Below are positions 6,907 to 64,000 of a stretch of 64,000 nucleotides of DNA, piece after piece (the stretch's first letter is position 1; every line of letters starts with the position of its first letter). The notes below the pieces were generated by a model. The model did not search any database, was not told the origin of the DNA, and saw only the letters and a list, made by a program, of their open reading frames with translations. The stretch is from a virus. Made by a program: the position numbers and the translations under genes. Location of the stretch: positions 186,001 through 250,000 of the IMG/VR virus record IMGVR_UViG_3300044796_000662; one strand, given 5' to 3'.

Positions 6907-9900
6907 TCAGTCCCATCCGCGCTTGCGGCCTCGTGGCGTCTTGTCGTCGGGGAAGTGCGCCGAGACGGCGTCGAGCACCTCGAAGTAGTAGTCCTTCGTG
7001 AAGGACTGGCTAAAGAAGGTTTCTTGAACGGTCCAGCGGACCATCCAGATGCCCGGCTGGCCACCTTCGCCAACGACACCCGTGACGTAGAAGTGTCCCA
7101 CACCGGGGCCGTGCGCCGGCTCGCGAGCGTCGGGCCCGACCGGCATGAGGAACATGTCCTTCACCTGGTAGAGGGCGAACGTGACCTTGTAGGGTTCGAC
7201 CGGGTGACGGCGCTTGTCGTCGTCCTTCTCGTAGACGTAGAGCGGCAGATGGTGCGGCTCGAAGAACGTGGCCCAGTACGGGAACGCGACGAGCCGCGAG
7301 GTCGTGCGAGTCCTGAGGATGGGCGGCAGAACCGGGGCTTGGTAGTTGTAGCCCGCGATGATCGCGCTGATCGGCGGTAGCGAGACGTACTGCGCCGGCG
7401 GCTGGACGTAGATGAAGGCGTTCTGCGAGGGAACACCGTAGCCCGCGAAGATCGAATCTTGGGGCGGGAGGTCTGCAACCGGGGGGAGAGCCGCAGGAAT
7501 GATCTGCGCGTTCTGTGGTGGGAACCCGAAGCCCGCGAAGAGGTACTGCGGGGGCGGGAGGTCCGGAACGAGCGGGGCCGGGATCGTCGGGATGATCTGC
7601 GGTGCTTGCGCCGCCTGGCCGTAGCCGACCACCAGCTCCGGGATCACAGTGGGGTACGGAGCGCGAGCGTCGTACGCCTGGAAGAGCTGTGCGACCTGTG
7701 CAGGGAAGCCGAACCCAGGGATGACGTACTGAGGCGGCGGAAGATCCGGTACGAGCGGGGGCGGTACCGCAGGGATGATCTGAGCAACCTGTGCTGCCTG
7801 CCCGTAGCCTGCCAGCACGTAGTCCGTAGGCGGCAAGAGCGCAGCGGGGGCGGGCACGCCGATGTAGATGGCGGGGTTCTGCGCGGCCTGTCCGAAGCCT
7901 GCGAAGAGGCTGTCGAGCGGGGGCAGAGGGACGTAGTCTGCGGGGGCTGCCTTCGAGATGAAGGGCGCCTGAGCGGCCTGCCCGTAGCCCGCGAACAGGT
8001 AGTCCGTGGGCGGGAGCTGCACGTAGGGGGACGGCGGGGGCAGCGAGAAGACCACTGCGGACTGCGCGGCCGTTCCAGCACCACCCGTGAGAGCACCACC
8101 GGACGTCGCATAGAAGGCCGGCGGCGGATCACCCGAGCTGAGGAGCAGCGGCGGCGGGATGAGGTAGTACGCGTGCGGGGCGACGGGCGGAGCGATGATG
8201 ATCTGCGCGTTCTGCGCGGCCTGACCGTAGCCCTTGAGGACGTAGTCCTGAGGGGGGAGCTGAGCACTCGGCGGGAGAACGAAAGGTTGGAACAGCTCGG
8301 GGCTCTGCGCTGCCTGGCCGTGTCCTGCGAAGACTGCGTCCTCCGGAGGGAGCTGGGTGAACGGTGGCACGAGTGGCTGCGTGTAGACCACGGCCTTCTG
8401 AGGCGGGAACCCGAAGCCAGCGAAGATGGAGTCCAGCGGAGGCAGTGCAGCGCTCGGCGGGAGAACGAACGGCTGGTAGAGAGCGGCGTTCTGAGCCGGA
8501 CGTCCAAAGCCCGCGTAGATGCTCTGTGGGGGCGGCAGCACCTCGGTTGGAGGCAGCACGAACGGCTGGACGAGGGTCGGTGCCTGCGCCGCCTGACCGA
8601 AGCCCTTGAGGATGTAGTCGGTCGGAGGCAGTGCAGCGAACGGCGGGACGAGCGGCTGCGTGTAGATTGCCGGGTTCTGTGGCGGGTAGCCGAAGCCCGC
8701 GAAGATCGAGTCCTCGGGCGGCAGGACAGCCGAGGGCGGCAGCAACGTGGGCTGCACGAAGAACGGCGCTTCGGCGGGCTTGCCGTACCCCGCATAGATG
8801 TAGTCCTGCGGCGGGAGTACCTCGGTCGGAGGCAGGATCGTCGCCTGAACATGGAAGGGTGCTTCCGCGGCCTGGCCGTACCCGGCGAACACGTAGTCCT
8901 GCGGAGGCAGATTGGCGCTTGGGGGAAGCAACGTGGGCTGCACGAAAAAGGGCACTTCGGCGGCCTGCCCGTAGCCTGCAAAGATCGAATCCAGCGGGGG
9001 AAGAGCAGCCGAGGGCGGAAGAACGAACGGCTGGAACAGCGCTGCGACCTGTGCAGGCTTGCCGTAACCGGCGTAGATGCTCTGCGGCGGAGGCAGGGCA
9101 GCCGAGGGCGGTAGGACGAACGGCTGTACGAAGAACGGTGCCTGAGCAGCCTGACCATACCCAGCGTAGACGTAGTCTTGCGGAGGCAGGTTCGCAGCGG
9201 GCGGCGGAACCCCAATGATCTGGACCGCCACTTGTGCAGGCTTGCCGAAGCCTGCGAAGATCGAATCCTCGGGCGGCAGGGCCACGTACGGGGGCTGCGG
9301 TTGCAAAGTGAAGGGGATGTTCGAGAGGCTGGGGGTTCCGTAGCCCGCGAAGATCGAGTCCTCCGGGGGCAAGATCGCGCTGGGGGCCGGGAAGAGCGAA
9401 GGGTAGAAGACCTCGGCGATCTGCGCAGCTTGACCGTAGCCGGTGACCACGTAGTCCTGCGGAGGCAGCGTCGCGCTCGGAGCAACGAGCGGTTGGGAGA
9501 TGGTGAACGCGTTGAGCGAAGGCTTGCCGTACCCTGCAACGAGGAAGGTGGGAGGGGGCAGGAGTGCAGACGGCGGCAGGACAAACGGCTGGAAGAGCGC
9601 TGCGTTCTGTGCCGGTTGACCGAACCCGGCGAAGATGCTTTGGGGTGGGGGCAGATCCGGAACCCTGGGCGGCGGGATCGCAGGGAGGATCTGTGCGACT
9701 TGAGCCGGCTGACCATACCCAATGAAGATCGAGTCCTCCGGGGGCAGAACCGCGAAGGGTGGGATCTGCGCCGGAACAACGGACGGGGCTTGTGTTGCCT
9801 GACCGAAGCCCTTGAGGATGTAGTCTTGCGGCGGAAGCTGAACGTAGGGGGCGGGGGGCTGTACCAGGAGTTGGGCGACCTGCGAGGGTTGACCGTATCC

Positions 9901-52408: not shown

Positions 52409-54385
52409 TCACCGAGCGCGTTCGTTGAAGAACACGGCCAGGATAGGCTCGGCCTGTACATCCACATCTGTGAGTCGCTCAGCGGCGACCTTCTGATCTG
52501 GGTTTGGCACGACCTCCGTGAGGGGAACGTCCCGGAGGGTCATGATGTCGAGGTTCAAACGAACCTGTGCTTCAGCGTCCCGGAGGCACTGATAGCGGAG
52601 CTTAGTCAAGCCTGCCAGATTCGAGGCGTAGATGCCATCTATGGTTCCGTAGAGCTGGACCAACCCCAGAAGCACCTTCTGTGGAACGGTCGGAACCCCA
52701 GGCAGGTTGTCTGACGAATCCCCAAGCAGTGCGCGAAGAGTCACGATCTGTGACGGCCCCACACCCCACTCCTGCGTCAGTGCGTCGATGTCGTACAGCA
52801 CTTCCTTTCGCTTACCTTGTGCCGGCGTCAGTAGACGGTCGGTCTCTGTCACGAGCTGTAGAAGGTCACGGTCCGAGGAGAGGACCACGTTGTTCTGGCC
52901 CTTCAAGGTGCCACGCAGGAGGCTTGCGATGGCATCGTCGGCCTCCTCCCCCTCGTTGTAGAGCTGTGTAACCCCCAGAATCGGGAGCACCTCGCGCAGC
53001 CAGGCCACCTGGTCCCAGCGCACGCCCCCTGTCTCTTCTTCCGCGAAGCCGCTCGAACGGTTGGCCTTGTAATCGGCGTACTTGGCCTTGCGGGTTCGAT
53101 TCGAGCCATCCCAGACCACGTAGATGCTGGCCCCTGGGAACCGCTTGAGCAGGCTTGCGGTCGAGCGCAGAAAGCCGAAGAGCACGCCCGTGTGCCTCTG
53201 TTGCGTGTCCCGCATGTCCGACATGCCGGGCGCGTAGAAGCAGCGATAGGCGAGGTTGAAACCGTCGATGATGACGTTCTGGACTTCCACGCTGGTCTCC
53301 TCAATCTCGCGCTCGATCTCCGAGACGTCGTCTGACAGGTTGTCCAGGCTCTCTTGCAAGTCCTGCAACGTGAGCCACTTGAAGTACCGTCCCTCGATCT
53401 CCGAGAAGGGCGTCTCGACGAGGCTCTCGCGGACAAGGGGTACGAGACCGTCCCAACGCTGTGTGAGACCATCAAGCAGGATCGCTCGGTCCCCTTGCTC
53501 CTTGAGCTTGCTCGCATCGAGGGGGATGTAGAACGACCGAACGAGGTTGGAGCGATGCTCCAGCCCCTCAGCCCAGTCGTTCAGTTGCGTATAGACGTCG
53601 AGTCTCGGACGTATCCGGGTGATGAGCGTGGGCGCGGTAAGTGCTGTCTGGATGGTCGTGAAACTCTCGACCTTGGACACCCAAGACTGGAACTGGAGAT
53701 ACTCCTGGTAGTGCTTGTTCAGGCGCGCGAAGCCGACGAGCTTTGGGGCCTTGAGCAGATCGTAGAAGTCGTTGAACCAGTCACGGACGCCTGCGAAGCG
53801 GTCCATGGCCGGAGCCTTGGGCGCCTTGGAGACGAGCCGGAGGAAGCTCCGGGGCAGCGTGATGATCGAGTCCTTGGAGCGTAGAAGAACCCGTACCTGG
53901 ACCTTGTCCTCTTCGGGAATCTCCTCGATGACCTTCGCCTGGATCTGGCGATAGGCCCCTGAGGTGATGAGAACCGTGTCGTCGATACCGATCCCCTGGT
54001 CGGTCTCGACATGGATCTGCCGCTTCATCTTGTCGATGGCGGAGTTCTCGACGAAGGCTAGCTGCCGGACAGGACGCCCCCCGTTCTCGGGTCGGACGAT
54101 CTTCGTGAGCACCTTCTGGACGTACTTGGAGTTGTCCAGTCTGTTGTAAAGCGTATCGGGGTGCTTGTGCCGAATGAACGCGTAGCCATCGACGAGGTAG
54201 TGCACTACCCGGTCCTCACCGATCTGCGTGACCGCAGCCGGAATGAACACTTCGGCGCCCTTCACTGCGTAGGTGATGGAACGCCGGACGATGTCCGGGT
54301 CCTCCCCTTCGGCCTTGGAACTCAGTTCCAAGATGACCCACTGGTTGGGATCGCTCGTCACAACGACTACGCCCTCCTGGGCCAT
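52409..54385 (-). CDS. NusG-like antiterminator fused to FEN-type 5' nuclease
   Basis: 658 residues in one uninterrupted frame. Residues 15-125 form an NGN-type domain (QWVILELSSK, LVDGYAFIRH, SKYVQKVLTKIV, FVENSAIDKMKRQI). Residues 131-185 form a KOW barrel (GIGIDDTVLITSGAYRQIQA ... VQVRVLLRS). Residues 369-572 are a 5'-3' exonuclease: VIIDGFN (D374), YVVWDG (D426), EGEEADD (E480-D484), SSDRDLL (D505, D507), GDSSDNLPGVP (D556, D559) with an HhH. A helical linker of ~180 residues lies between. NusG/RfaH proteins hold RNA polymerase on DNA; FEN enzymes remove flaps and primers. The fusion is unusual. Overlaps the clamp-loader gene by 19 bases. Confidence 0.8.
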   Translation of the reverse strand: MAQEGVVVVTSDPNQWVILELSSKAEGEDPDIVRRSITYAVKGAEVFIPAAVTQIGEDRVVHYLVDGYAFIRHKHPDTLYNRLDNSKYVQKVLTKIVRPENGGRPVRQLAFVENSAIDKMKRQIHVETDQGIGIDDTVLITSGAYRQIQAKVIEEIPEEDKVQVRVLLRSKDSIITLPRSFLRLVSKAPKAPAMDRFAGVRDWFNDFYDLLKAPKLVGFARLNKHYQEYLQFQSWVSKVESFTTIQTALTAPTLITRIRPRLDVYTQLNDWAEGLEHRSNLVRSFYIPLDASKLKEQGDRAILLDGLTQRWDGLVPLVRESLVETPFSEIEGRYFKWLTLQDLQESLDNLSDDVSEIEREIEETSVEVQNVIIDGFNLAYRCFYAPGMSDMRDTQQRHTGVLFGFLRSTASLLKRFPGASIYVVWDGSNRTRKAKYADYKANRSSGFAEEETGGVRWDQVAWLREVLPILGVTQLYNEGEEADDAIASLLRGTLKGQNNVVLSSDRDLLQLVTETDRLLTPAQGKRKEVLYDIDALTQEWGVGPSQIVTLRALLGDSSDNLPGVPTVPQKVLLGLVQLYGTIDGIYASNLAGLTKLRYQCLRDAEAQVRLNLDIMTLRDVPLTEVVPNPDQKVAAERLTDVDVQAEPILAVFFNERAR

Positions 54386-55860
54386 GTGCGCTCGAATTCC
54401 CGTCGCCAGTCTTCCGGCGTCAGAATGCGATTCATCTCGTCCTCTGTTCCTTGATGGAAGGACAGCGGAACGTCAATGTTGCCTGGGTTGGAACGGCTCC
54501 GAGGCCGCCCCAACGGCACAGCCTTGTGGTCTTCGGAGGTGAGAGCGTAAGGGTCCCCTGAGCCGATAGCTCCGATGCCGTCCGCCCGCATCTTGCCGTT
54601 GCCCCCATTGGTTGCCGCGTGGACGATGGGGACTTGGGGTGCCGGAGAGGGGGAGGGTGGCGCCGCCGTTGTCACGGGAGACGGTGCAGACACCGGCTGT
54701 GACACCGCAGGAGGCGTTGAGGGGGTAGCTTGAACCGCTGCGGTCTGAACAGGGACCGAAGCGACGGCCATGGGTGCAGACACGGACAGCACAAGAGGCT
54801 GCGCCCCCATCTGTTGGGGAACGGCGCCGTTGGACTGCGCGAGGCTCACGATGTCGCAGACAAGGCTGATCCGCGACACTGCCCGATGCCGAAGGAAGTA
54901 TTCGGCCAGCTTGGTGCACCCCGTGGTGAACCGCTGGTAGACCTGCTCGGCCAGTTGCCGGTCCACGTACACGAAGTCGGCCGCCATGTTGTTGGCAAGC
55001 CGGAACGAGTTCATGGCCGCCTCGGCAAGACCTGCGGCCACCTGGTCAGCGGGCACTCGCTCGCATGCCTGGTCCACGAGTTCGAGAGCCTGCTTGGGGT
55101 TCCCGAGCGCAAGGAGGATCTGGTAGTACGTCGAGACGACACTGAGGTGTAGGTACTCTCGAACAGACTCGACCGTGACCGACCCCATCTGGGCGATCAT
55201 CTCCAGCTTGTTCAAGATGTCCCGGACGTGCCCGCCCGAGTGATCGATCACGATCAACACCGCGTCGTCTTGGTACTCGACCTTCTCGGTTTCGAGCACC
55301 ATTCGCATCCGCCCGAGCACGTCCTCACGAGTGACCTTACGGATCGGGTACGTCTCGCAGCGGCTCTGGATGGTCCCGCGGATGTTCTGAGGCTCGGTCG
55401 TACAGAAGATACCGAGGAGCTTCTTCTCCTCGATGGGCTTGAGCAGGACGTCCTGAGCCTCCTTGCTCATCCGGTGCGCCTCGTCGAAGAGGTAGATGCG
55501 GATGGGCGCCCCCATGGGCGGCATGTACGGGAGGTCTTCGAGCAGGTCACGGACGTTGGCAACGCCGCCGTTACTAGCCGCGTCGCGCTCCGTGAAGGCA
55601 CTGGGCTGGTCCTCCAGAATCGCGAGGCACTGCTCGCAGACGTTGCAGGGCTCCCACTCCTCACGGTTCAAGTTCTGACAGAGGGCCGCCCTCGCCAGCA
55701 CACGGGCAAGGGTGGTCTTGCCCTGCCCGTGACCGCCCGCGAAGATGTAGGACGTGTTCAGGATGGTCCCGTTCCTCAAGCGAGCCTTGATGAGCTGGAC
55801 GGATCCCTCCTGACCGAGCACCTCGGAGAACTTGCGCGGGCGGTACTTAGTGTCCCACAT
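54367..55860 (-). CDS. DnaX-like clamp loader ATPase
   Basis: 497 residues. MWDTKYRPRKFSEVLGQE start, Walker A GGHGQGKTT (42-50), zinc finger C61, C72, C75, C78, Walker B IYLFDEAH (122-129) and SRC motif (166-168), all in DnaX (tau/gamma) order. Residues 170-330 form the expected lid and collar helices. A Pro/Ala/Ser-rich linker (~350-420) ends in a short basic and acidic tail, shorter than tau. With the DnaN-like gene it implies a phage-encoded processivity system; delta and delta-prime partners are not seen. No ribosome site; CGGTGTAG lies 19 bases upstream. Confidence 0.85.
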   Translation of the reverse strand: MWDTKYRPRKFSEVLGQEGSVQLIKARLRNGTILNTSYIFAGGHGQGKTTLARVLARAALCQNLNREEWEPCNVCEQCLAILEDQPSAFTERDAASNGGVANVRDLLEDLPYMPPMGAPIRIYLFDEAHRMSKEAQDVLLKPIEEKKLLGIFCTTEPQNIRGTIQSRCETYPIRKVTREDVLGRMRMVLETEKVEYQDDAVLIVIDHSGGHVRDILNKLEMIAQMGSVTVESVREYLHLSVVSTYYQILLALGNPKQALELVDQACERVPADQVAAGLAEAAMNSFRLANNMAADFVYVDRQLAEQVYQRFTTGCTKLAEYFLRHRAVSRISLVCDIVSLAQSNGAVPQQMGAQPLVLSVSAPMAVASVPVQTAAVQATPSTPPAVSQPVSAPSPVTTAAPPSPSPAPQVPIVHAATNGGNGKMRADGIGAIGSGDPYALTSEDHKAVPLGRPRSRSNPGNIDVPLSFHQGTEDEMNRILTPEDWRREFERTWPRRA

Positions 55861-55879
55861 GGTGCTTGGTTCGTGTCAG

Positions 55880-55887
55880 CTACACCG
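55880..55887 (-). promoter_or_regulatory. Candidate CGGTGTAG element
   Basis: CGGTGTAG in the 28-base gap upstream of the clamp-loader ATG (55860), overlapping the palindrome 55885-55905. The distance to ATG is 19 bases, longer than the 8-9 in the other four. Confidence 0.3.
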
Positions 55888-55905
55888 TTCAGGAATCCTG
55901 AACGG
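55885..55905. promoter_or_regulatory. Near-perfect 21-base palindrome, possible operator
   Basis: CCGTTCAGGA, one base, TCCTGAACGG: two perfect 10-base half sites around the stop codon at 55889. The tight centre favours a protein-binding dyad over an RNA hairpin, though a stem of eight with a short loop is possible. Confidence 0.4.
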
Positions 55906-56380
55906 TTTCCTCTGCGATGCTGGCGCTGACGACGTCGTTGACCAAGTCCTCGATCTTGACGTCCTTGGCGATCGAAACGAAGCCGTTCAGCTCCTCATTC
56001 CAGGCGCCGTGACGCTGAAGGATGGACGAGAACTCCTGGACGTCCGGCTTGCGGATCTTCCAGGACATCTCCCCCGACTTCTCGTCTTCCTCGCCGTAGC
56101 AGCGCTCCAGGAGGTGGTCGATGAGAGCCGTCCTCTGTTCGACGCCCAGCTCGTTGAACTCGTCCAGAGCGACTTCGATCAGGAAGTCCACCTCCAGAAG
56201 GAACTGAAGAACGCCAGAGATCTTGCGGACCTTGCCCAGGACAGGGCGACCGGACTCCTTGGAGGCCGTGTCCACGTAGATGTACTTGACGCGGGCCGTG
56301 GCCAGCTCGGGGTGGTAGCTCGGGATGAGCTTCAACGCGATCTGCTCCACCGTGTCGGCAATTCCGTAAACCTTAGCCAT
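55889..56380 (-). CDS. Degenerate phage metallopeptidase-like protein
   Basis: 163 residues matching the size and landmarks of the putative phage metallopeptidase family: ARVKYIYVDTASKESGRPVL, GVLQFLLEVDFLIEVALDEF, RTALIDH, then WKIRKPDVQEFSSILQRHGAW. In active-looking relatives the motif is HELxH followed later by HDxxEF. Here these read H89-LLER-93 and K111-P112-D113, so the general-base Glu and two zinc His are missing. It is probably a non-catalytic binding protein. It lies between primase and clamp loader, so a replisome accessory role is conceivable. Confidence 0.6.
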   Translation of the reverse strand: MAKVYGIADTVEQIALKLIPSYHPELATARVKYIYVDTASKESGRPVLGKVRKISGVLQFLLEVDFLIEVALDEFNELGVEQRTALIDHLLERCYGEEDEKSGEMSWKIRKPDVQEFSSILQRHGAWNEELNGFVSIAKDVKIEDLVNDVVSASIAEETVQDS

Positions 56381-57101
56381 CGTTTCTCTCCATCAGGCGG
56401 TTGAAGGGCTCTACACCCTCCCGAATGAATTTGCCGAGATACTCTTCACCCCGAAGCTCCCAGAGGTCCCCTGGGTCCTTCGTCATCTTGCCGTTGGGCA
56501 TGGGCAACTTGGCCCAACGGATGCCCTCGATCTGGTACTCACGCCCATGCTCCTTGTAGAAGCTGGCGGCGGCCTTTTGGCCAGTGGTGTCATTATCATA
56601 CGCAAGCACGATACGCTTGCATGTTCTCCGCAGCGTGGCGAGAAAGGGCCCAACGACACGTGCGGTCATGGTCGCGACCACCGCTGGGGAATGCCTCTGG
56701 ACCGGGAACAGGTCGTTGGCCCCCTCAACGAGGGTCACCGATTCCGTGGCCCAAATGTGCGGCATCGCCTGCCCGAGTCCGAAGAGGATCGGCTCCCCGG
56801 TATCGAGCATGAAGTTCGAGTTGAACTTGCGGCTCCTGTCCACGGGGCGGAACTGCACCCCACGGATCTCCCCGAGCGCGTTGGTCAACGGATAGACGAA
56901 CACGTCGTCAAGAACCGTCCCCGAACCGTACTGTTTGAGGAACTTCGGATCGTAGTCCAACGGCGGAAGCGTCCGCTTCAAGTAGCCGATGTTGTACTCC
57001 CTGATCTGCTCGTCGGAACAGCCGCGGACGTTGAGCGCCTCGACCACCCGCTCTGTCATGAGCGAGCGGGCGTACTCGACTAGTTGATCAAGCCACGCCA
57101 T
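56373..57101 (-). CDS. DnaG-type primase catalytic domain (TOPRIM)
   Basis: 242 residues. The RNA polymerase-domain segment VFVYPLTNALGEIRGVQFRP (67-86) and SRKFNSNF (90-97) are followed by TOPRIM motifs VTLVEGANDLF (E126, D130) and IVLAYDNDTTGQKA (D169, D171), with a final KDPGDLWELRG. Primases make RNA primers for lagging-strand synthesis. There is no N-terminal CHC2 zinc finger and no C-terminal helicase domain, so those functions must come from another gene or the host. The ATG overlaps the upstream gene by 14 bases. Confidence 0.8.
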   Translation of the reverse strand: MAWLDQLVEYARSLMTERVVEALNVRGCSDEQIREYNIGYLKRTLPPLDYDPKFLKQYGSGTVLDDVFVYPLTNALGEIRGVQFRPVDRSRKFNSNFMLDTGEPILFGLGQAMPHIWATESVTLVEGANDLFPVQRHSPAVVATMTARVVGPFLATLRRTCKRIVLAYDNDTTGQKAAASFYKEHGREYQIEGIRWAKLPMPNGKMTKDPGDLWELRGEEYLGKFIREGVEPFNRLMERNDG

Positions 57102-57726: not shown

Positions 57727-58293
57727 TCACTCCTCGACGATGGGCAGCGACGGCTTGGACTGAACAGGCTCCCACGGAGGTAGAAGCTTCTCCGGGTCCT
57801 CCGGCTGGCTCAAGGGTTCGACCTGGATGCGCAGGAGCTTGTACCAGAGGCGCTTCCACCAGGGGATGTCCGGCACCTGCATCTTGTTGATCGCCCATAG
57901 CAACCCGTAGACCTCGGGCATGTTGACCCTGAGCCAGTCCGGATCCTTGAGCTGTTGCGCGAAGTCGTTCCAGATCGTCTTCTTGTTGGCCTTGGGGTTG
58001 AAGTACGGGCAGCGCTGAGCGTCGATGGGCTCCTCGCAAATCGTACCCGGCCAGTCCTCGACGCTTGAGGCGCCGAGCATGCAAAGACCCATCGACGGCG
58101 TTCCAGGGGACGTCCCGATGCGGTTGTAGTTCTCGTTGACCTCGCCCGCGATGCGCTTGCGCACGTCCAGCGGGTGCCGATAGTTGTGCGTACAGAGGTG
58201 CGGGAGCCGGTGCTCCGCGAGCTTCACTCTGGCGGTCAGCTCTTCTACGAGCAGAAACCTGATCCGCGCTTCGATCTCGGTTGCATCTCTCAT
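57727..58293 (-). CDS. Cys-containing hypothetical protein
   Basis: 188 residues. Four Cys in the first half: PHLCTHNYRHPLD (C34), GLCMLG (C71), GTICEEPIDAQRCPYFNPKA (C85, C94). A helical second half contains LKDPDWLRVNMPEVYGLLWA and PWWKRLWYKLLRIQV. The four Cys could hold a zinc or Fe-S cluster; the leading C-x-H-N resembles the first Cys of the modules at 46434-48437. It lies next to the Rad50 C-half gene (4-base overlap). Function unknown. Confidence 0.55.
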   Translation of the reverse strand: MRDATEIEARIRFLLVEELTARVKLAEHRLPHLCTHNYRHPLDVRKRIAGEVNENYNRIGTSPGTPSMGLCMLGASSVEDWPGTICEEPIDAQRCPYFNPKANKKTIWNDFAQQLKDPDWLRVNMPEVYGLLWAINKMQVPDIPWWKRLWYKLLRIQVEPLSQPEDPEKLLPPWEPVQSKPSLPIVEE

Positions 58294-58985
58294 TTGGGTC
58301 CTCGGAGCCGTTTCAGGCCCAGTGACCAGGTTGTATCAGAAGATTGCTCTTCGAAGCCCTGGTAGGCAGACTTCGCGTGGTCCAAGAACGCCTGGTTGTG
58401 CGTGACGAGAAGGATCGGGATGTTCGTCGTTTCCGACAACTTCCTGAGGAACTGGCCGGTCTGATCCACGTAGTAGTCACTGACGGCCGACAGAGTCTCA
58501 TCCAGGAACAGGACAGGGAACTTCTTGAGGCGCATGAGCGCCAAGAGCCGCAGCGTCAAAGACGCGATGCTCGACACACCACCGCCCGTTGTTTCTAGCG
58601 GCGGTCCGACGATCTCGATGTCGTTCTGCGTGCGCTTGACGAGCAGGTCGATGGAGACCTTCCCTCGGGACTGACCGACCTCAGCCTGAAAGGAGAGGTC
58701 GATGTCGAAGAAGATGGACTTGAGCCCCTCGGTCACGATGGACTCGATGGCCTTCACCTGGTCCATGACCAGCTTGTCCATGAGCAGGCGAAGAAGCTCC
58801 CCTGTTTTGGAGAGCTTCTCCACCCGCTCGGACAACACCGTGATCTCCCTCGCCGTCTTGTCCCGCTGCTGGACAAGGGAGTCCCTCCGCGTCTGAACAC
58901 GGGTCGCGGAGGTCTTGAGTGCTTCAACCCTGGTCTTCCAGGCGTCGGTCACTCGTACGACGGCATGAACCGAGTCACCGTGCAT
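58290..58985 (-). CDS. SbcC/Rad50-like C-terminal half (signature + Walker B)
   Basis: 231 residues, ATG at 58985 with AGGAG at seven bases. A coiled coil of about 60 residues (RDSLVQQRDKTAREITVLSE) leads to the ATPase C-lobe: ETTGGGVSSIASLTLRL (signature, 131-147), PVLFLDETLSAVS (Walker B D162/E163 and D-loop, 157-169) and LLVTHNQAF (H196). It has no Walker A, which is on a separate protein (62422-63666). Such lobes must pair to form an active ATPase. The gene starts inside the end of the clamp gene (37-base overlap). This looks like a naturally divided Rad50/gp46. Confidence 0.8.
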   Translation of the reverse strand: MHGDSVHAVVRVTDAWKTRVEALKTSATRVQTRRDSLVQQRDKTAREITVLSERVEKLSKTGELLRLLMDKLVMDQVKAIESIVTEGLKSIFFDIDLSFQAEVGQSRGKVSIDLLVKRTQNDIEIVGPPLETTGGGVSSIASLTLRLLALMRLKKFPVLFLDETLSAVSDYYVDQTGQFLRKLSETTNIPILLVTHNQAFLDHAKSAYQGFEEQSSDTTWSLGLKRLRGPK

Positions 58986-60247
58986 GAGATTGCTCCTGCC
59001 GGAACCTGCCCTCCCTCGGGCAGTTCACCGGCCACCGTCTTGCCCTCGGCATCGAGGTAGAACCTGTCGATGGTCCGGAGGTAGGCGCCACCCTTGGGGC
59101 GCTTCTCGCTCGGGTCGATCGGGTAGACCCGAAGCTCGACGGTGCCACCCTCGGCGTCCTTGAACAGCGAGAGGAGCTGCTTGCGGTTGATGAACGGCTC
59201 CAGGGTACGGTCGGGCTCCGCCAGCGACGAGTCCTTGCCGACGCTGATGAACATGCTCTTGATGCCCTTGGCGTTACCCTCGGCCGCCTCCAACTGAAGA
59301 GTGTTGGAGTCCTTGTTCCAGAGGAGCCGCACCTTGTCGTGCTTGTCCCCCAGCTCCTCGCCCATGTAGCCGAGCGCGTCGATCATCTCGGCCTTGGGGA
59401 TCTTGAAGACGAACTTGTCGCCGCCGAGCCCGTAGTACGAGTGCTTGGCGTGCAGCTTCGTGGTGTGCGTCCAGCCGAAGACCCGGCTTTCCGACTCGTC
59501 GCAGACGAAGGTCTTCGTGTCCGTAGACTTGATGACCGCCGTCCCCTCGATCTTGCCGAGGAAGCTGAGAAGCAGACCGAGATGCTCGGCCTTGAGCGCG
59601 AAGCTCTTGCCCTTGAACGCCTCGCAGTCGAAGTAGAACGCCTGCGAACCGTTGGCAGCGTAGAGCACGCCGTCACCCTTCTCGTAGGGCTTGATCATCT
59701 GACCCTTGTTCTTCGGGTCCTCGACCTCCGCGTCCTTGTCGAACATCTGGATGGTCTTGTGCTGATCCTCGGCACGGGGATTGTTCTCCCCGTGGAAGTC
59801 CTTGGACAGACTGAGAGCCTTGCGAAGGACGGCGGCGGGGAACTTGCCGGTCTCCTTGGCGGCCTTCAGCTCCTTGTCGAAGGTAGCCAGCCACTTCGGG
59901 TCGAAGGCGGGGCGGGTGCCGCCGGCCCCACGCCCGGGGTCGTAGCTGACGCTGAACTGGTCGCCATCCCTCTTGGACTCGAAGCTGATCGGGCCCGAGA
60001 AATACTTGAACGCCCCGATCGATTCGTACGGGTAGGCGAAGACGCCCTCACCATCCGCGTCGAAGATGTCCATGCGTGCCCGAGCGACATGGTTCGCGTC
60101 GGCCGAGTACATGTACCCCTCGGTCGAGTTGCGGATGTAGAAGAGGAAGCCCGTGTCCCTCTCCTTGTTGCACGCCCTGGGGACCACCGTCTGAACGGCG
60201 TCGATCGCGGCGTTCAGGTGGGCGGCTTGCACTGAGAACTTGATCAT
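58949..60247 (-). CDS. DnaN-like DNA sliding clamp
   Basis: 432 residues from the ATG at 60247 (GAGG six bases upstream; two in-frame ATGs just before it are less good). It starts IKFSVQAAHLNAAIDAVQTV, as beta clamps do, and ends ISCTVTRFMPSYE, comparable to the C-terminal strand of DnaN. The middle shows three repeated beta-rich domains with inserts (MIKPYEKGDGVLYAANGSQA, GKSFALKAEHLGLLLSFLGK). At 432 residues it is somewhat longer than bacterial DnaN (~370). With the DnaX-like protein it would tether polymerase to DNA. Assignment is by N/C-terminal pattern and context. Confidence 0.6.
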   Translation of the reverse strand: MIKFSVQAAHLNAAIDAVQTVVPRACNKERDTGFLFYIRNSTEGYMYSADANHVARARMDIFDADGEGVFAYPYESIGAFKYFSGPISFESKRDGDQFSVSYDPGRGAGGTRPAFDPKWLATFDKELKAAKETGKFPAAVLRKALSLSKDFHGENNPRAEDQHKTIQMFDKDAEVEDPKNKGQMIKPYEKGDGVLYAANGSQAFYFDCEAFKGKSFALKAEHLGLLLSFLGKIEGTAVIKSTDTKTFVCDESESRVFGWTHTTKLHAKHSYYGLGGDKFVFKIPKAEMIDALGYMGEELGDKHDKVRLLWNKDSNTLQLEAAEGNAKGIKSMFISVGKDSSLAEPDRTLEPFINRKQLLSLFKDAEGGTVELRVYPIDPSEKRPKGGAYLRTIDRFYLDAEGKTVAGELPEGGQVPAGAISCTVTRFMPSYE

Positions 60248-60255
60248 GTTCATCC

Positions 60256-60528
60256 TCATTTCTTCTCGTAGGCCGAGAAGGCTGACTCGGTCTTCGTCAA
60301 GTCGGACTCGTACTCACCGAGCATCTGTTCGAGTTCCGCTTTGGCCTTGTCCCGCTCCCCCACGAGAGTCTTCGGGTCGTAGCCGGCGGCCTTGATCTCC
60401 TTGATCAGAGCCGCCAGTTCCTCTTTCTTGGCCTGAAGCTGGCCGCCGAACTGGGCCTTTTTGGTAGCCACAGCGTCCGTTCGCTTCTGAAGGTCGTCGA
60501 TCTTCTTCTTGATCTCGTCGGGCGTCAT
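60256..60528 (-). CDS. Small coiled-coil protein
   Basis: 90 residues, almost entirely one charged helix hairpin: TPDEIKKKIDDLQKRTDAVA, then AKKEELAALIKEIKAAGYDP, and AKAELEQMLGEYESDLTKTE. It lies inside the Rad50/Mre11 gene group and ends in an overlap with the clamp gene region. It could be the missing part of the Rad50 coiled coil or a clamp partner; both are inference. Confidence 0.55.
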   Translation of the reverse strand: MTPDEIKKKIDDLQKRTDAVATKKAQFGGQLQAKKEELAALIKEIKAAGYDPKTLVGERDKAKAELEQMLGEYESDLTKTESAFSAYEKK

Positions 60529-60546
60529 GTGTCTTCCTCTGTCGGC

Positions 60547-61434
60547 TTATTCGTCGATAGCGACATCCTCTACACCTGACGCTGGGGAAATCTGAGGACG
60601 ATTTTCAGAGGTCATTACCTGGCCTTCCGGGCACGCGAAGACGAACGGGCAGAAGCCGCAGGCACCCTTCTTCGCCCTGGCGGGGAACGCCTGTGCGGCA
60701 ATCGGCAGCCTCTTTCGCTGTTCGATCTCCTCGATGGTACGTATGACCGTCTCTTGCAGCTCGTCTACGGCGTCCCGCGTGGGGACTGACCAGTCCACAG
60801 CCTCGTCGGGCGGGAAGCGCCAGAAAACGAACGCCACCTGGTCGGGGAGCGACCCTGTCTTGCGGCGGTGAAGCATCGAGTACCAGTGGAGCTGCTCGAT
60901 GTCCACGTACTTGTCCCGGTGCCTTGAGCCCTTACCATCGAGGATGATGAGGTCCCCGAGGGGGTGCAGACGTCGCATCCGGAAGTCACAGCGTCCCCCG
61001 AGCATGTGCCCGCTGATCTCGGAGTCCAGCTTCACCTCTGCGGCCGCATCCGTACCGAGCAGCTTGAACTTGCGGATGATGGCAAGGCTGTTCGGGATCG
61101 CCTCTCGGATCTCCTGTATGACCTGGTCCAGAGAGTGCGGGCCGTTCTTCTTGAGCTTGGGATCCTTCCAGTTGAAGATCCCGCCGCCCTTGATCTCGTT
61201 ACGCATCGTCTCGGCAACGACAGAGGACACCCGACTGAGCATCTCTTTGGCGGGATCGGGGAGCTTCCACATCTTGTCGCGGTAGAAGTGCTCGACGATG
61301 ATGCCGATGCAAGACCCGTAGAGCATGTTCACCCGGTTCTCGGGCGTCGGCACCTTGGTCTTGTTGACGTACGAGTGCCAATACTGCCTGGGGCACTCCC
61401 TGTACTTCTTGAACCCGGAGTAGGAGAGGTACAT
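60547..61434 (-). CDS. Cas4/RecB-type PD-(D/E)XK nuclease with Fe-S cluster
   Basis: 295 residues. N-terminal YSGFKKYRECPRQYW supplies C14; C-terminal CGFCPFVFACPEG supplies C259, C262 and C268, the 1+3 Cys arrangement of Fe-S nucleases (Cas4, AddB). Nuclease core: EHF (48-50), GGRCDF (D150), LIILDGKGS (D166, K168) and the QLHWY motif (Q181, Y185). Such enzymes process DNA ends with 5' or 3' polarity. It overlaps the SbcD-like gene by one base (start and stop share it), so end resection by this cluster is a reasonable inference. Confidence 0.82.
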   Translation of the reverse strand: MYLSYSGFKKYRECPRQYWHSYVNKTKVPTPENRVNMLYGSCIGIIVEHFYRDKMWKLPDPAKEMLSRVSSVVAETMRNEIKGGGIFNWKDPKLKKNGPHSLDQVIQEIREAIPNSLAIIRKFKLLGTDAAAEVKLDSEISGHMLGGRCDFRMRRLHPLGDLIILDGKGSRHRDKYVDIEQLHWYSMLHRRKTGSLPDQVAFVFWRFPPDEAVDWSVPTRDAVDELQETVIRTIEEIEQRKRLPIAAQAFPARAKKGACGFCPFVFACPEGQVMTSENRPQISPASGVEDVAIDE

Positions 61435-62420
61435 TAGCCCACGCCCGTTTCTGCTCTTGCGCGTTCCAGGTAGTCGATGGCGAGCTGCTTGACGTCGGAA
61501 GCGAACGAGAGCCCCTGGATGTTGGCCTCGATGGTCTGCGACACGTCAAAGGACGCCTCGCTCTGCAACCGCTCAATGAACTGGTCGATGTTCTCGTGCT
61601 CGCGCTCTGCGCGTTCCTTGCGTTCGAGGTCGAACACTTCGGACGCCGGCGCGACGGACAGCAACAGAGGAGTAATCTCGGCACGCCCCGGCTCGAAGCC
61701 CAAGAGTGCCACCTTTGGGGATCGCTGAAGGTTCTCGTTGATGAGAGCCCCGCGGCTGACAGCACCGAGATTGACGAACTGCTTGCCCCCGAGCTGAACG
61801 ATCCCCTGATCCTTGTGCCAGTGCCCGAAGCACCACACATCTGGACCGTCCTTCGTGACAAGCTGGTCGTACCGGAAGACAGGCTCGTTGAAGAATTCGC
61901 GCACGTTCGGGGGCGGTTCCTCTCCTGCCAGCGAGTGCACGATGGCCACGAGGAAGTCATCACCCGGCTGCTTCTGAATGGCCCTCAGGTCGTCAGCGGT
62001 ACGGTTCGCACTGTAAGGCACCCCGACCACTCGCACGCGCATCCCGCCGTCCTCGAAGACCGTGCTCCGCAAGTGCCGAAAGACCCCCGTCTCGTAGAGA
62101 ACACCCAGAGGTTGACCGGCCACGCTGTCGAGTCGGTTGTAGGCGATGTCGTGGTTGCCCTCGACGCAATACGTGGGCACCCCATACGTGTTGTGCACGC
62201 TAGCCGTTTCCACAACGATCGCGTGGGGGTTGCGACTGGCAGCCTTGATGTGGAAGTAGTCGCCCCCATCGAGGACGGCCTTGACCTCATGCTCCTTGGA
62301 GAAAGCCCCGATCTGCCGGAGGTTGGACCAGATCTCCGCGGGGTAGTCCGCCTTCCAGGAGGAAGGGCTACGGTCGCAGAGATGGGTGTCTGTCCGGTAG
62401 AGCAGAGAGACGCGCGGCAT
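61434..62420 (-). CDS. SbcD/Mre11-like nuclease
   Basis: 328 residues. Calcineurin-like phosphoesterase motifs in order: RTDTHL (D11, H13), DGGDYFH (D54), VEGNHD (N89, H90, D91), AIVHS (H162), CFGHWHKD (H200, H202). These bind two manganese ions in Mre11. The C-terminal third is charged and helical (LERKERAEREHENIDQFIER), the region that contacts Rad50 in the family. It sits one base after the Rad50 N-half gene, as T4 gp47/gp46 or sbcCD genes are paired. Confidence 0.88.
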   Translation of the reverse strand: MPRVSLLYRTDTHLCDRSPSSWKADYPAEIWSNLRQIGAFSKEHEVKAVLDGGDYFHIKAASRNPHAIVVETASVHNTYGVPTYCVEGNHDIAYNRLDSVAGQPLGVLYETGVFRHLRSTVFEDGGMRVRVVGVPYSANRTADDLRAIQKQPGDDFLVAIVHSLAGEEPPPNVREFFNEPVFRYDQLVTKDGPDVWCFGHWHKDQGIVQLGGKQFVNLGAVSRGALINENLQRSPKVALLGFEPGRAEITPLLLSVAPASEVFDLERKERAEREHENIDQFIERLQSEASFDVSQTIEANIQGLSFASDVKQLAIDYLERARAETGVG

Positions 62421-62421
62421 A

Positions 62422-63666
62422 TCAGGCCAGCTTCCTCTCCTCGTGGCTGTGCCCGATCTTGACGGGCTGTGCGCACGAAGGACAGAAAGGCAGGGACTTG
62501 ATCTCTCCTACCAGTACCTTCTCGTCAGCGAGAGTCTTGTCGTAGTTGTTCTCCAGGTTCGAGATGGTCTCTTCGAGCGAGGCCATTCTCGACGCGAACG
62601 ACGAGAGCTGGAGGAGTCGATCCCTGGCCACCTTGAGGCCCGTGGGGTCCGGCGTCGTGACGTTCTCGACCCCCTTGAACTTGACCCACTGATCCTGCAA
62701 GCTCTGGAGCTTGTTCGTCCAGGTCGAGAGCTTCTCGAACTTGTCCGCGGCAGCGACGACAGGAGCGGCGATCGGCGTCGGGATGGTCTCGACACCCATG
62801 AGCGACTTCACAGCCGTCGCGCGATCGATCACATCGGACTGGTAGCGGGAGAGCTTCTCGAACTCACTGCGCTTGGCCAGCACTGCGTCGATGGTGGGGA
62901 CTGGCGTTTCGACAGCCTTCTTCAGGGTATCGACGCGGAAGCCGATCGCTCGCAGTTCCTCGATGTAGGAGTCGAGAGACTCGACTGCCTCCTGAACGAC
63001 GGTGATCTGCCCGAGCTTCTTCTCGACCGCGACGACTCCCGCCACGGCCTCGTCGAGGCCCTCGTACTCGTTGATCTGATGCGTTAGCTCGGTCATGTCC
63101 TTCTCCCGGACCTTCCTTGTGGAGACGGCCTCTTTGCGGTCCTTCTCGACGAACCTCATCGCGACGTTGATGCGGTCAAGATGGGCAACGTCGGAGAACA
63201 CGTCAGCGACAACTCCGCCCGACTGGTCGAGCAAGAAGATGTTGTCGAACTGGTCAGCGATCTGGAGCAGCTTGGCGTTGGGCCCGATCTGCACCATCCC
63301 GAAGTCCTTGGCGAGCTTGGGCCTCTCCAAGAAGTCCGGGGTCCCTCTGTTGGGGACCCCGTAGTCCTGACCGTTGAACGTGTAGCTGTTGCGCTTGTCC
63401 CCCTTCTCCCACTTGAGGTCGAAGCCCTCCGTGCGGAGGTGCACCGAGCAGTAGCATTCGCAGGTCTTGGACCCGCGCAGACGCCTATGACAGGCGACAC
63501 CATGACGGACGAACGAGGTCCCAGTCGCGCCCGTGAGGGCCGCGCGAACGGCCCTCACGATGGCGCTCTTGCCGATGTCGGACTTCCCGACGAGGGCGGT
63601 GAACCCGTCGATGTTGATCGAGACGTGCTCGATCGATTGGAAGTTCCGGACCTCTACGTCGATCAT
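62422..63666 (-). CDS. SbcC/Rad50-like N-terminal half (Walker A + zinc hook)
   Basis: 414 residues. Starts MIDVEVRNFQSIEHVSINID and has Walker A VGKSDIGKSAIV (26-37) as in Rad50 N-lobes. A CECYC cluster lies near 69-73. Residues about 190-390 are coiled coil (VREKDMTELTHQINEYEGLD, SLEETISNLENNYDKTLADE). It ends with a CxxC zinc hook, FCPSCAQPVKIG (C395, C398), 16 residues before the stop. No signature or Walker B follows: those are on 58290-58985, about 3.4 kb downstream. Dimerising through the hook and through the two lobes would rebuild a Rad50-like machine. Confidence 0.82.
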   Translation of the reverse strand: MIDVEVRNFQSIEHVSINIDGFTALVGKSDIGKSAIVRAVRAALTGATGTSFVRHGVACHRRLRGSKTCECYCSVHLRTEGFDLKWEKGDKRNSYTFNGQDYGVPNRGTPDFLERPKLAKDFGMVQIGPNAKLLQIADQFDNIFLLDQSGGVVADVFSDVAHLDRINVAMRFVEKDRKEAVSTRKVREKDMTELTHQINEYEGLDEAVAGVVAVEKKLGQITVVQEAVESLDSYIEELRAIGFRVDTLKKAVETPVPTIDAVLAKRSEFEKLSRYQSDVIDRATAVKSLMGVETIPTPIAAPVVAAADKFEKLSTWTNKLQSLQDQWVKFKGVENVTTPDPTGLKVARDRLLQLSSFASRMASLEETISNLENNYDKTLADEKVLVGEIKSLPFCPSCAQPVKIGHSHEERKLA

Positions 63667-63668
63667 GA

Positions 63669-64000
63669 TCAGGACTCGCCGGTTCCGCCGTCGATGTCCT
63701 CCGAACCGGGCACCTCATCGTCGCTGTCGAAGGCAGCGTCGTCGCCGAGGTCGGACTCGATCTCCGCGATGAGGGCGTCGTCCTCGCTCTGCTGCTCGGC
63801 AGGGTTGACCGCGGTCGCCGTCGAGAACATGGCCGCCGTGACCTTCGCTTGCAGCTCGGCCAGCAGCTTGGGGTTCTCCGTGAGAACCTTCTGGAAGGTC
63901 TCCTGACCGTGGTAGCGCTGACCGTCGTAGATCAACCAGCCAGCGGCCTCCTTCTTGATCTGCTTGAACCGGATGCCGTTCTCGATGATCGAGTACGTGT
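63669..64000 (-). CDS. Hypothetical acidic protein, partial (N-terminus beyond window)
   Basis: Open to the right edge; about 110 C-terminal residues are visible. RFKQIKKEAAGWLIYDGQRY is followed by a helical KVLTENPKLLAELQAKVTAA. The acidic tail (EDDALIAEIESDLGDDAAFD and beyond) ends GGTGES. The stop lies two bases before the Rad50 N-half ATG. An acidic tail is common in phage single-strand-binding and recombination mediator proteins, but too little is visible to assign it. Confidence 0.55.
   Translation of the reverse strand, partial: TYSIIENGIRFKQIKKEAAGWLIYDGQRYHGQETFQKVLTENPKLLAELQAKVTAAMFSTATAVNPAEQQSEDDALIAEIESDLGDDAAFDSDDEVPGSEDIDGGTGES

Follow-up and report, generated by a model that had tools for sequence, protein, structure and literature searches.

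Organization of the Locus

The window analyzed here is a 64,000-nucleotide stretch of a virus record (IMG/VR IMGVR_UViG_3300044796_000662, 362,937 bp), corresponding to bases 186001-250000 of that record. It carries an operon on the minus strand in the order recA, Rad50-N, Mre11, Cas4/AddB-type nuclease, K, DnaN clamp and Rad50-C (Table 1), in which the genes are packed tightly and some of them overlap. An earlier note, made from the sequence alone, had claimed that Rad50/SbcC is encoded here as two half-proteins around other genes, and the open reading frames agree with it in position, all on the minus strand, with SbcD/Mre11, a PDDEXK_1 nuclease, a 90-aa coiled-coil protein and a clamp between the halves. 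While this gene set was right, the note did not recognize K as a member of the conserved core, nor the occurrence of the system in bacterial chromosomes. The ORF preceding Rad50-N, which lay outside the range covered by the note and continues beyond the window, was identified as the C-terminal part of RecA. The 362,937-bp record yielded neither a second Rad50/SMC nor an intact Rad50.

Table 1. Genes of the split Rad50 operon in the window
Feature	Position	Strand	Description
RecA, C-terminal part	63669..64000	-	Phage RecA of 460 aa, continues beyond the window end; directly upstream of Rad50-N
Rad50-N half	62422..63666	-	414 aa; lobe I, five-helix arm, hook CPSC
Mre11/SbcD nuclease	61434..62420	-	Metallophos E 6e-12; Mre11_Sulfo E 1e-6
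Cas4/AddB-type PD-(D/E)xK nuclease	60547..61434	-	PDDEXK_1 E 1.5e-16
K, 90-aa coiled-coil protein	60256..60528	-	Homologues at phage and bacterial loci
DnaN-type sliding clamp	58949..60259	-	Profile against beta clamps E 1.9e-20 over the clamp length
Rad50-C half	58290..58985	-	231 aa; N-terminal helix and lobe II; assigned from Rad50 profile and AF2 model

Just downstream of the operon (54367-57101, minus strand) are genes for a DnaX-type clamp-loader-like protein, a PhageMetallopep-family protein (PF18894) and a Toprim primase-like protein, which makes the split-Rad50 cluster part of a replication region. Next to these, a 658-aa ORF (52409-54385, minus strand) combines an unrecognized N-terminal region with a FEN-like 5'-3' exonuclease domain in the C-terminal half. 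Outside the window, upstream of recA in the same genome, a RuvC-like resolvase ORF adjoins recA (L207, 1922-3001).

The Rad50-N Half

Walker A (GKSDIGKS, residues 27-34, positions 63588-63565) and the zinc hook (CPSC, residues 395-398, positions 62484-62473) are both on the N chain, where the earlier note had placed them, and the hook ends 16 residues short of the C-terminus. Walker A was found only in N at this locus; its G, G and K are invariant in relatives, and it is present in 76 of 78 N-halves. A CPxC motif lies near the chain end in 77 of these 78, at a median of 13 residues from the C-terminus, even though N ranges in length from 301 to 527 residues among the 78 locus pairs. Q139, C395, P396 and C398 are invariant across 32 N relatives. 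Q139 is likely the Q-loop glutamine of lobe I, an equivalence to the Rad50 Q-loop that rests on position and not on structure.

The window N alone matches AAA_23 with an E value of 2e-8. A profile of 33 N sequences matched Rad50 over positions 4-206 and, separately, crystal structures of the Rad50 zinc hook at 342-397, while the best single PDB match of the phage N profile is an OLD-family ATPase, over the first 44 residues only. Bacterial N matches Rad50 (PRK03918) over residues 3-453 of 878, up to the hook, with an E value of 4e-20, and half-matches the Pfam family Rad50_zn_hook (PF04423) with an E value of 0.0012, below the curated cut-off. The AF2 single-chain model of N (pLDDT 77.8) has five helices after lobe I, at residues 150-200, 204-253, 259-289, 301-330 and 342-391, about 210 residues in total. 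In fold comparison (Foldseek/VIA), 9a9j_A and 1f2u_A were matched with Z 10.3 and 10.2, and SMC, RecF and Rad50 half-heads tie at Z 10-11. The fold by itself therefore does not single out Rad50 for N, and the assignment rests on the hook and the context.

The Rad50-C Half

The signature (TGGGV, about 58592-58575), Walker B (VLFLDE, 58514-58497) and the H-loop (H196, 58400-58398) are confined to the C chain at the window locus, and the residues GGG, LFLDE and VTHN are present as the earlier assignment of these motifs to this protein requires. The start of C is uncertain, being either ATG at 58985 or GTG at 58952; the GTG start gives a 4-base overlap with the clamp stop, like the ATG of the C gene of the closest relative. 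Among 112 C-halves, the aspartate and glutamate of Walker B are present in all and the H-loop histidine in 109. The signature serine is present in none of the 112: the Gly-Gly pair is kept, the third position is G, A or S, the Glu/Gln is replaced, and no alignment register yields a serine-containing SGG signature. Without this serine, ATP-driven closure of the head may differ from that of canonical Rad50. C is nearly constant in length in the 78 locus pairs (median 211, with one outlier of 150 aa).

Using a profile of 64 C sequences, P. furiosus Rad50 (3qkr_B) was identified as the best solved relative, with an E value of 7.7e-13, ahead of cohesin SMC3 and ABC transporters. Bacterial C matches the last 90 residues of Rad50 (783-871/872). 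For the window C alone, the best NCBIfam match is SMC. The AF2 single-chain model of C (pLDDT 92.8) has one N-terminal helix at residues 4-91, against the five helices (150-391) in N, and the very unequal coil lengths proposed for the two lobes are thus reproduced in the models. Compared with known structures, C gave 1f2u_B as its top match (Z 13.8, rmsd 2.6, 143 residues). An origin of N and C in different families (RecF-like versus SMC-like), which according to the earlier note would have refuted the proposal, was rejected, since the family profile of C and the bacterial N and C choose Rad50.

Mre11, Nuclease, K and Clamp

All phosphoesterase residues of Mre11 are intact (D11, H13, D54, N89, H90, H162, H200 and H202), and the motifs D11, H13, G53-D54, G88-N89-H90-D91, H162, G199-H200 and H202 are conserved at 94-100% in 95 sequences. 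Judged by its sequence, the neighboring nuclease is a Cas4/AddB-type PD-(D/E)xK enzyme with four cysteines and a predicted Fe-S cluster, the cluster itself being inferred. The cysteines C14, C259, C262 and C268 are present in 100% of 72 relatives, and D150 and D166-x-K168 in 98-100% of them. The nuclease is an accessory of the huge phages and is absent from the bacterial operon. The clamp is likewise a huge-phage accessory. Single-sequence comparison with PHROG gave a weak match (E 0.012), whereas the family profile firmly matched DnaN structures (8dt6_A, E 1.9e-20, profile positions 2-354). It is the only clamp found in its own record, and is therefore presumably the replicative one, within a recombination-replication operon.

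K has a conserved helix-turn(GxDPxxL)-helix architecture. It accompanies N or C in most genomes, and adjoins N where N lies far from C (loci L090 and L092). Searches of Pfam, PHROGs and NCBIfam for homology of K to a known coil gave only weak coiled-coil matches. Where K is lost, N-halves are shorter (5 loci versus 73, p 0.003), a link that is suggestive only. C offers one arm helix against the five of N, and K is encoded next to C or N, which makes K a candidate to pack on the N arm. An arm subunit packing on the unpaired N arm is the most likely role of K, for which there is no direct evidence.

Conservation in Phages

When viral contigs were scanned with the N or C protein of the window alone, no relatives were found; these were retrieved only with alignments of distant relatives as the query. 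A scan with the C-half alignment gave 67 viral loci and a second scan gave 57, overlapping the first set, and the gene order at viral loci was read with home-made profile HMMs. The same split, which the earlier note had proposed to look for in related phages, is widespread: both halves are encoded as separate genes at more than 100 related loci, far beyond chance. The order N-Mre11-nuclease-K-clamp-C on one strand, sometimes with insertions, is found in most viral loci, including dozens of huge-phage contigs, and almost every huge-phage locus has the clamp gene between K and C. Smaller Bacillus phages have the order N-K-C-Mre11, with the nuclease and clamp not nearby, and the Microcystis phage Mvi-JY20 has N-Mre11-K-C.

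The huge-phage records are mostly fragments. Among 30 records chosen because N was absent or truncated in the vicinity of C, an N-half was found in 17, away from C in 13 cases; in three large records (193-274 kb), no N was found. In the Tunturiibacter phage Tunturi_5, C lies at 19 kb and N at 127 kb. An AAA_23 search of 50 related records found no intact Rad50, only N-half-type ORFs and some short or weak other matches, so that the complete Rad50 elsewhere that would have spoken against a split was seen neither in these records nor in the virus's own. The distance matrices of N and C correlate with a rho of 0.86, against a permutation maximum of 0.11 (78 locus pairs). Linked genes share their history, and the value therefore shows co-inheritance of N and C, not contact. 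RecA was found in 90 of 122 phage stretches (duplicates counted), directly upstream of N in most of those 90. The split is read as old and functional, not as a product of decay.

At some of these loci, genes of HNH-like or AP2-domain proteins are inserted between the Rad50 halves (L001, 6997-7728; L004 gp33, 8969-9541), in the manner of free-standing homing endonucleases. The huge phage LR745208 encodes two TnpB-like transposon proteins close to its Rad50-C gene (L001, 13681-15920, minus strand).

Occurrence in Bacterial Chromosomes

A scan of bacterial genomes yielded 24 loci. The order Mre11-N-K-C was found between recA and rny, amid housekeeping genes, in Aedoeadaptatus, Peptoniphilus, other Tissierellia and Thermoflavimicrobium (Bacillota). 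The split is thus not phage-specific, and a large group of Clostridia-like bacteria carries it. When 398 sampled genomes from a single phylum were searched with the C-half profile, 65 gave a match at E <= 1e-20; three of them are the fusions described below, which leaves about 62 with a separate C-half. The SbcC model TIGR00618 matches 165 of the 398, and 2 genomes match both this model and the C-half profile, where about 27 would be expected (Fisher p 3e-14). This test takes no account of common descent, closely related genomes not being independent, and TIGR00618 is incompletely sensitive, matching in 7 of 14 control genomes. Among 32 genomes checked separately, SbcC was found in only 4, all with the Bacillus-phage-like split order, and the split set there is therefore read as a prophage. 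Given this near-exclusion of intact SbcC, these bacteria appear to use the split set in place of SbcCD, with the chromosomal split genes replacing SbcC.

Fusions and Inteins

At the viral locus L056, Mre11 and N form one ORF of 772 aa, followed by K and C. Three bacterial genomes combine Mre11, lobe I and lobe II in one ORF of 684-700 aa (about 690), without coil, hook or K. Both lobes are in one chain only in these three genomes; otherwise there are two genes. Of the evidence presented here, the fusions speak most strongly for N and C working as one head with Mre11, and the coil-free ones suggest that some lineages can do without the arm.

Intein-like insertions were found within the P-loop of the Rad50-N gene, after ..SGK, at two loci (L029, 2656-4779; L030, 3382-5628) and before the GHWH motif of Mre11 at another (L048, 3545-5872, with a Mre11 ORF of 775 aa). 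A similarly long Mre11 ORF, of 744 aa, is present at L123.

Proposed Mechanism and Alternative Explanations

These data are best read as a split Rad50/SbcC, in which N and C in trans form one Rad50-type head on Mre11 that processes DNA ends before RecA acts, and we assign this reading a probability of roughly 0.88. The genes, the motifs, the fold of each half, the conserved separation, the co-inheritance, the fusions and the near-exclusion of intact SbcC are shown here, while the assembly, the ATPase and nuclease activities, the role of K and the hand-over to RecA are inferred. Structures of N and C were predicted as single chains only, and the N-C contact is inferred without experiment. Likewise, the partnership with Mre11 is observed as genetic linkage and fusion, and physical binding is inferred.

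P. furiosus Rad50 produced as two separate half-chains forms a working head (the constructs behind PDB 1f2t and 1f2u). The profile matches to 1f2t/1f2u show chains A and B, consistent with such a two-chain head. In the proposed complex, the N chain would provide lobe I and a long segmented arm with a zinc-hook half-site at its very end, and the C chain lobe II together with a short arm helix; of the descending arm, almost nothing is left in the split system. N and C would associate non-covalently into one ABC-type head that binds Mre11. Two such composite heads would dimerize on ATP over a Mre11 dimer and hold DNA ends for cutting by Mre11, as in Mre11-Rad50/SbcCD, with K most likely packing on the unpaired N arm. 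The processed DNA would presumably be passed to the RecA encoded next door. In the huge phages, the set has acquired the Cas4/AddB-type Fe-S nuclease and the gene of the replicative clamp, and probably forms with them a single operon for recombination-dependent replication.

A different explanation is that one half derives from a RecF/OLD-like ATPase and the other from an SMC/ABC-like protein, so that N and C would be independent proteins which share the operon but form no joint head. It draws on the 44-residue OLD match of the N profile, on the RecF and SMC heads that score as high as Rad50 in the fold comparison of N, and on the SMC match of the window C alone. However, neither half has a complete nucleotide site, with Walker A only in N and the signature and Walker B only in C. 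In addition, the halves share more than 100 loci or lie apart within one record, three genomes have them fused, and family-level profiles assign them to Rad50, all of which makes their independence improbable. Still harder to sustain is decay, in which a once-intact sbcC would have been broken by insertions into non-working pieces, with host SbcCD supplying the function. The HNH and AP2 gene insertions between the halves of some phages would fit, but the separate genes are kept, and their catalytic residues are invariant, even among distant relatives whose halves share as little as about 20% identity, the genes in the window overlap tightly, and bacteria that carry the split set chromosomally have no intact copy. 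Least credible is that the halves are joined into a one-chain Rad50 by protein trans-splicing or frameshifting. Inteins do occur in some relatives, but those seen are complete and interrupt the P-loop or Mre11 rather than flanking N or C; N stops a median of 13 residues past the hook without intein sequence, and the descending arm is missing from both chains. Frameshifting was rejected by gene order, since other genes or up to more than 100 kb lie between the halves.

The clamp could also be the platform on which the complex is built, with DnaN docking Mre11 and the Rad50 halves for replication-coupled end processing. The earlier note had suggested such docking, and with few exceptions the huge-phage loci do have the clamp gene between K and C. 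Nevertheless, no clamp-binding pentapeptide was found in N, Mre11 or K, and the one match in C is isolated and does not recur. The core occurs without a neighboring clamp in Bacillus phages and bacteria, and the clamp, as the only one in the record, is presumably replicative, so that its position may just reflect a replication operon. Docking of the complex on the clamp remains possible but unsupported, and a complex built on the clamp is unlikely.

A further reading, more tentative than the split Rad50 itself and which we consider somewhat short of an even chance, is that a three-chain Rad50 of N, K and C is an ancient alternative to SbcC. With the chain cut at the hook and K replacing the missing descending strand, the arm would have a free end able to open, and the phage cluster would be the machine that bacteria encode next to recA, supplemented by a nuclease and a clamp.

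Comparison with Known Systems

No description of a split Rad50/SbcC was found in the openly accessible literature, and the multi-chain Rad50, a variant of a known DNA-repair machine, appears to be undescribed. The usual picture of Rad50 and its SMC relatives is that of a single chain, in which the two ends meet as the ATPase and continuous arms close a ring. A natural and widespread multi-chain Rad50 with an arm strand nearly missing, a terminal hook and no signature serine offers a direct test of which of these features the Mre11-Rad50 mechanism needs, and the coil-free fusions of Mre11, lobe I and lobe II, with their roughly 690 residues, represent a naturally occurring minimal enzyme. Genes labelled 'ATPase', 'exonuclease', 'AAA domain' or hypothetical in public libraries could also be named on this basis and assigned a likely function, in bacteria that otherwise seem to be without SbcC.

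The split system resembles Mre11-Rad50/SbcCD (archaeal Rad50, E. coli and B. subtilis SbcC) in its ATPase half-domains, its hook motif, the Mre11 gene in the operon and the presence of all Mre11 catalytic motifs. It differs in its two-chain ATPase, the chain end at the hook, the nearly absent descending arm and the extra protein K, and its signature is GG(G/A/S)V instead of SGG(E/Q). The T4 gp46/gp47-type pairs, such as gp43/gp44 of Achromobacter phage JWF, likewise combine a phage Mre11 with a short Rad50 in recombination-dependent replication, but JWF gp43 is a single chain of 670 aa with both lobes.

Fusion of Mre11 ahead of Rad50 is also known from Mimivirus R555 and other proteins, according to the accessible parts of Yoshida et al. 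(Yoshida et al., 2011; PMC3175470). Those parts report two Mre11/Rad50 fusions in which one P-loop segment is missing, which may be an early hint of the split, and no description of a split second half, of K or of a chromosomal operon was found in them. In jumbo phages, SbcC/SbcD are nearly universal, and a split RNA polymerase beta/beta' and DNA Pol III alpha have been described, as far as a review was available (PMC7824862); the available portion contains no mention of a split SbcC. Like those enzymes, the system described here is a large enzyme made as several chains, but the Rad50 split is also found in bacterial chromosomes. A parallel in chain layout is found in the P. furiosus Rad50 crystal constructs (1f2t, 1f2u, 1ii8 and 3qkr), where separate N and C chains form one head; those constructs are man-made, whereas the split described here is natural.
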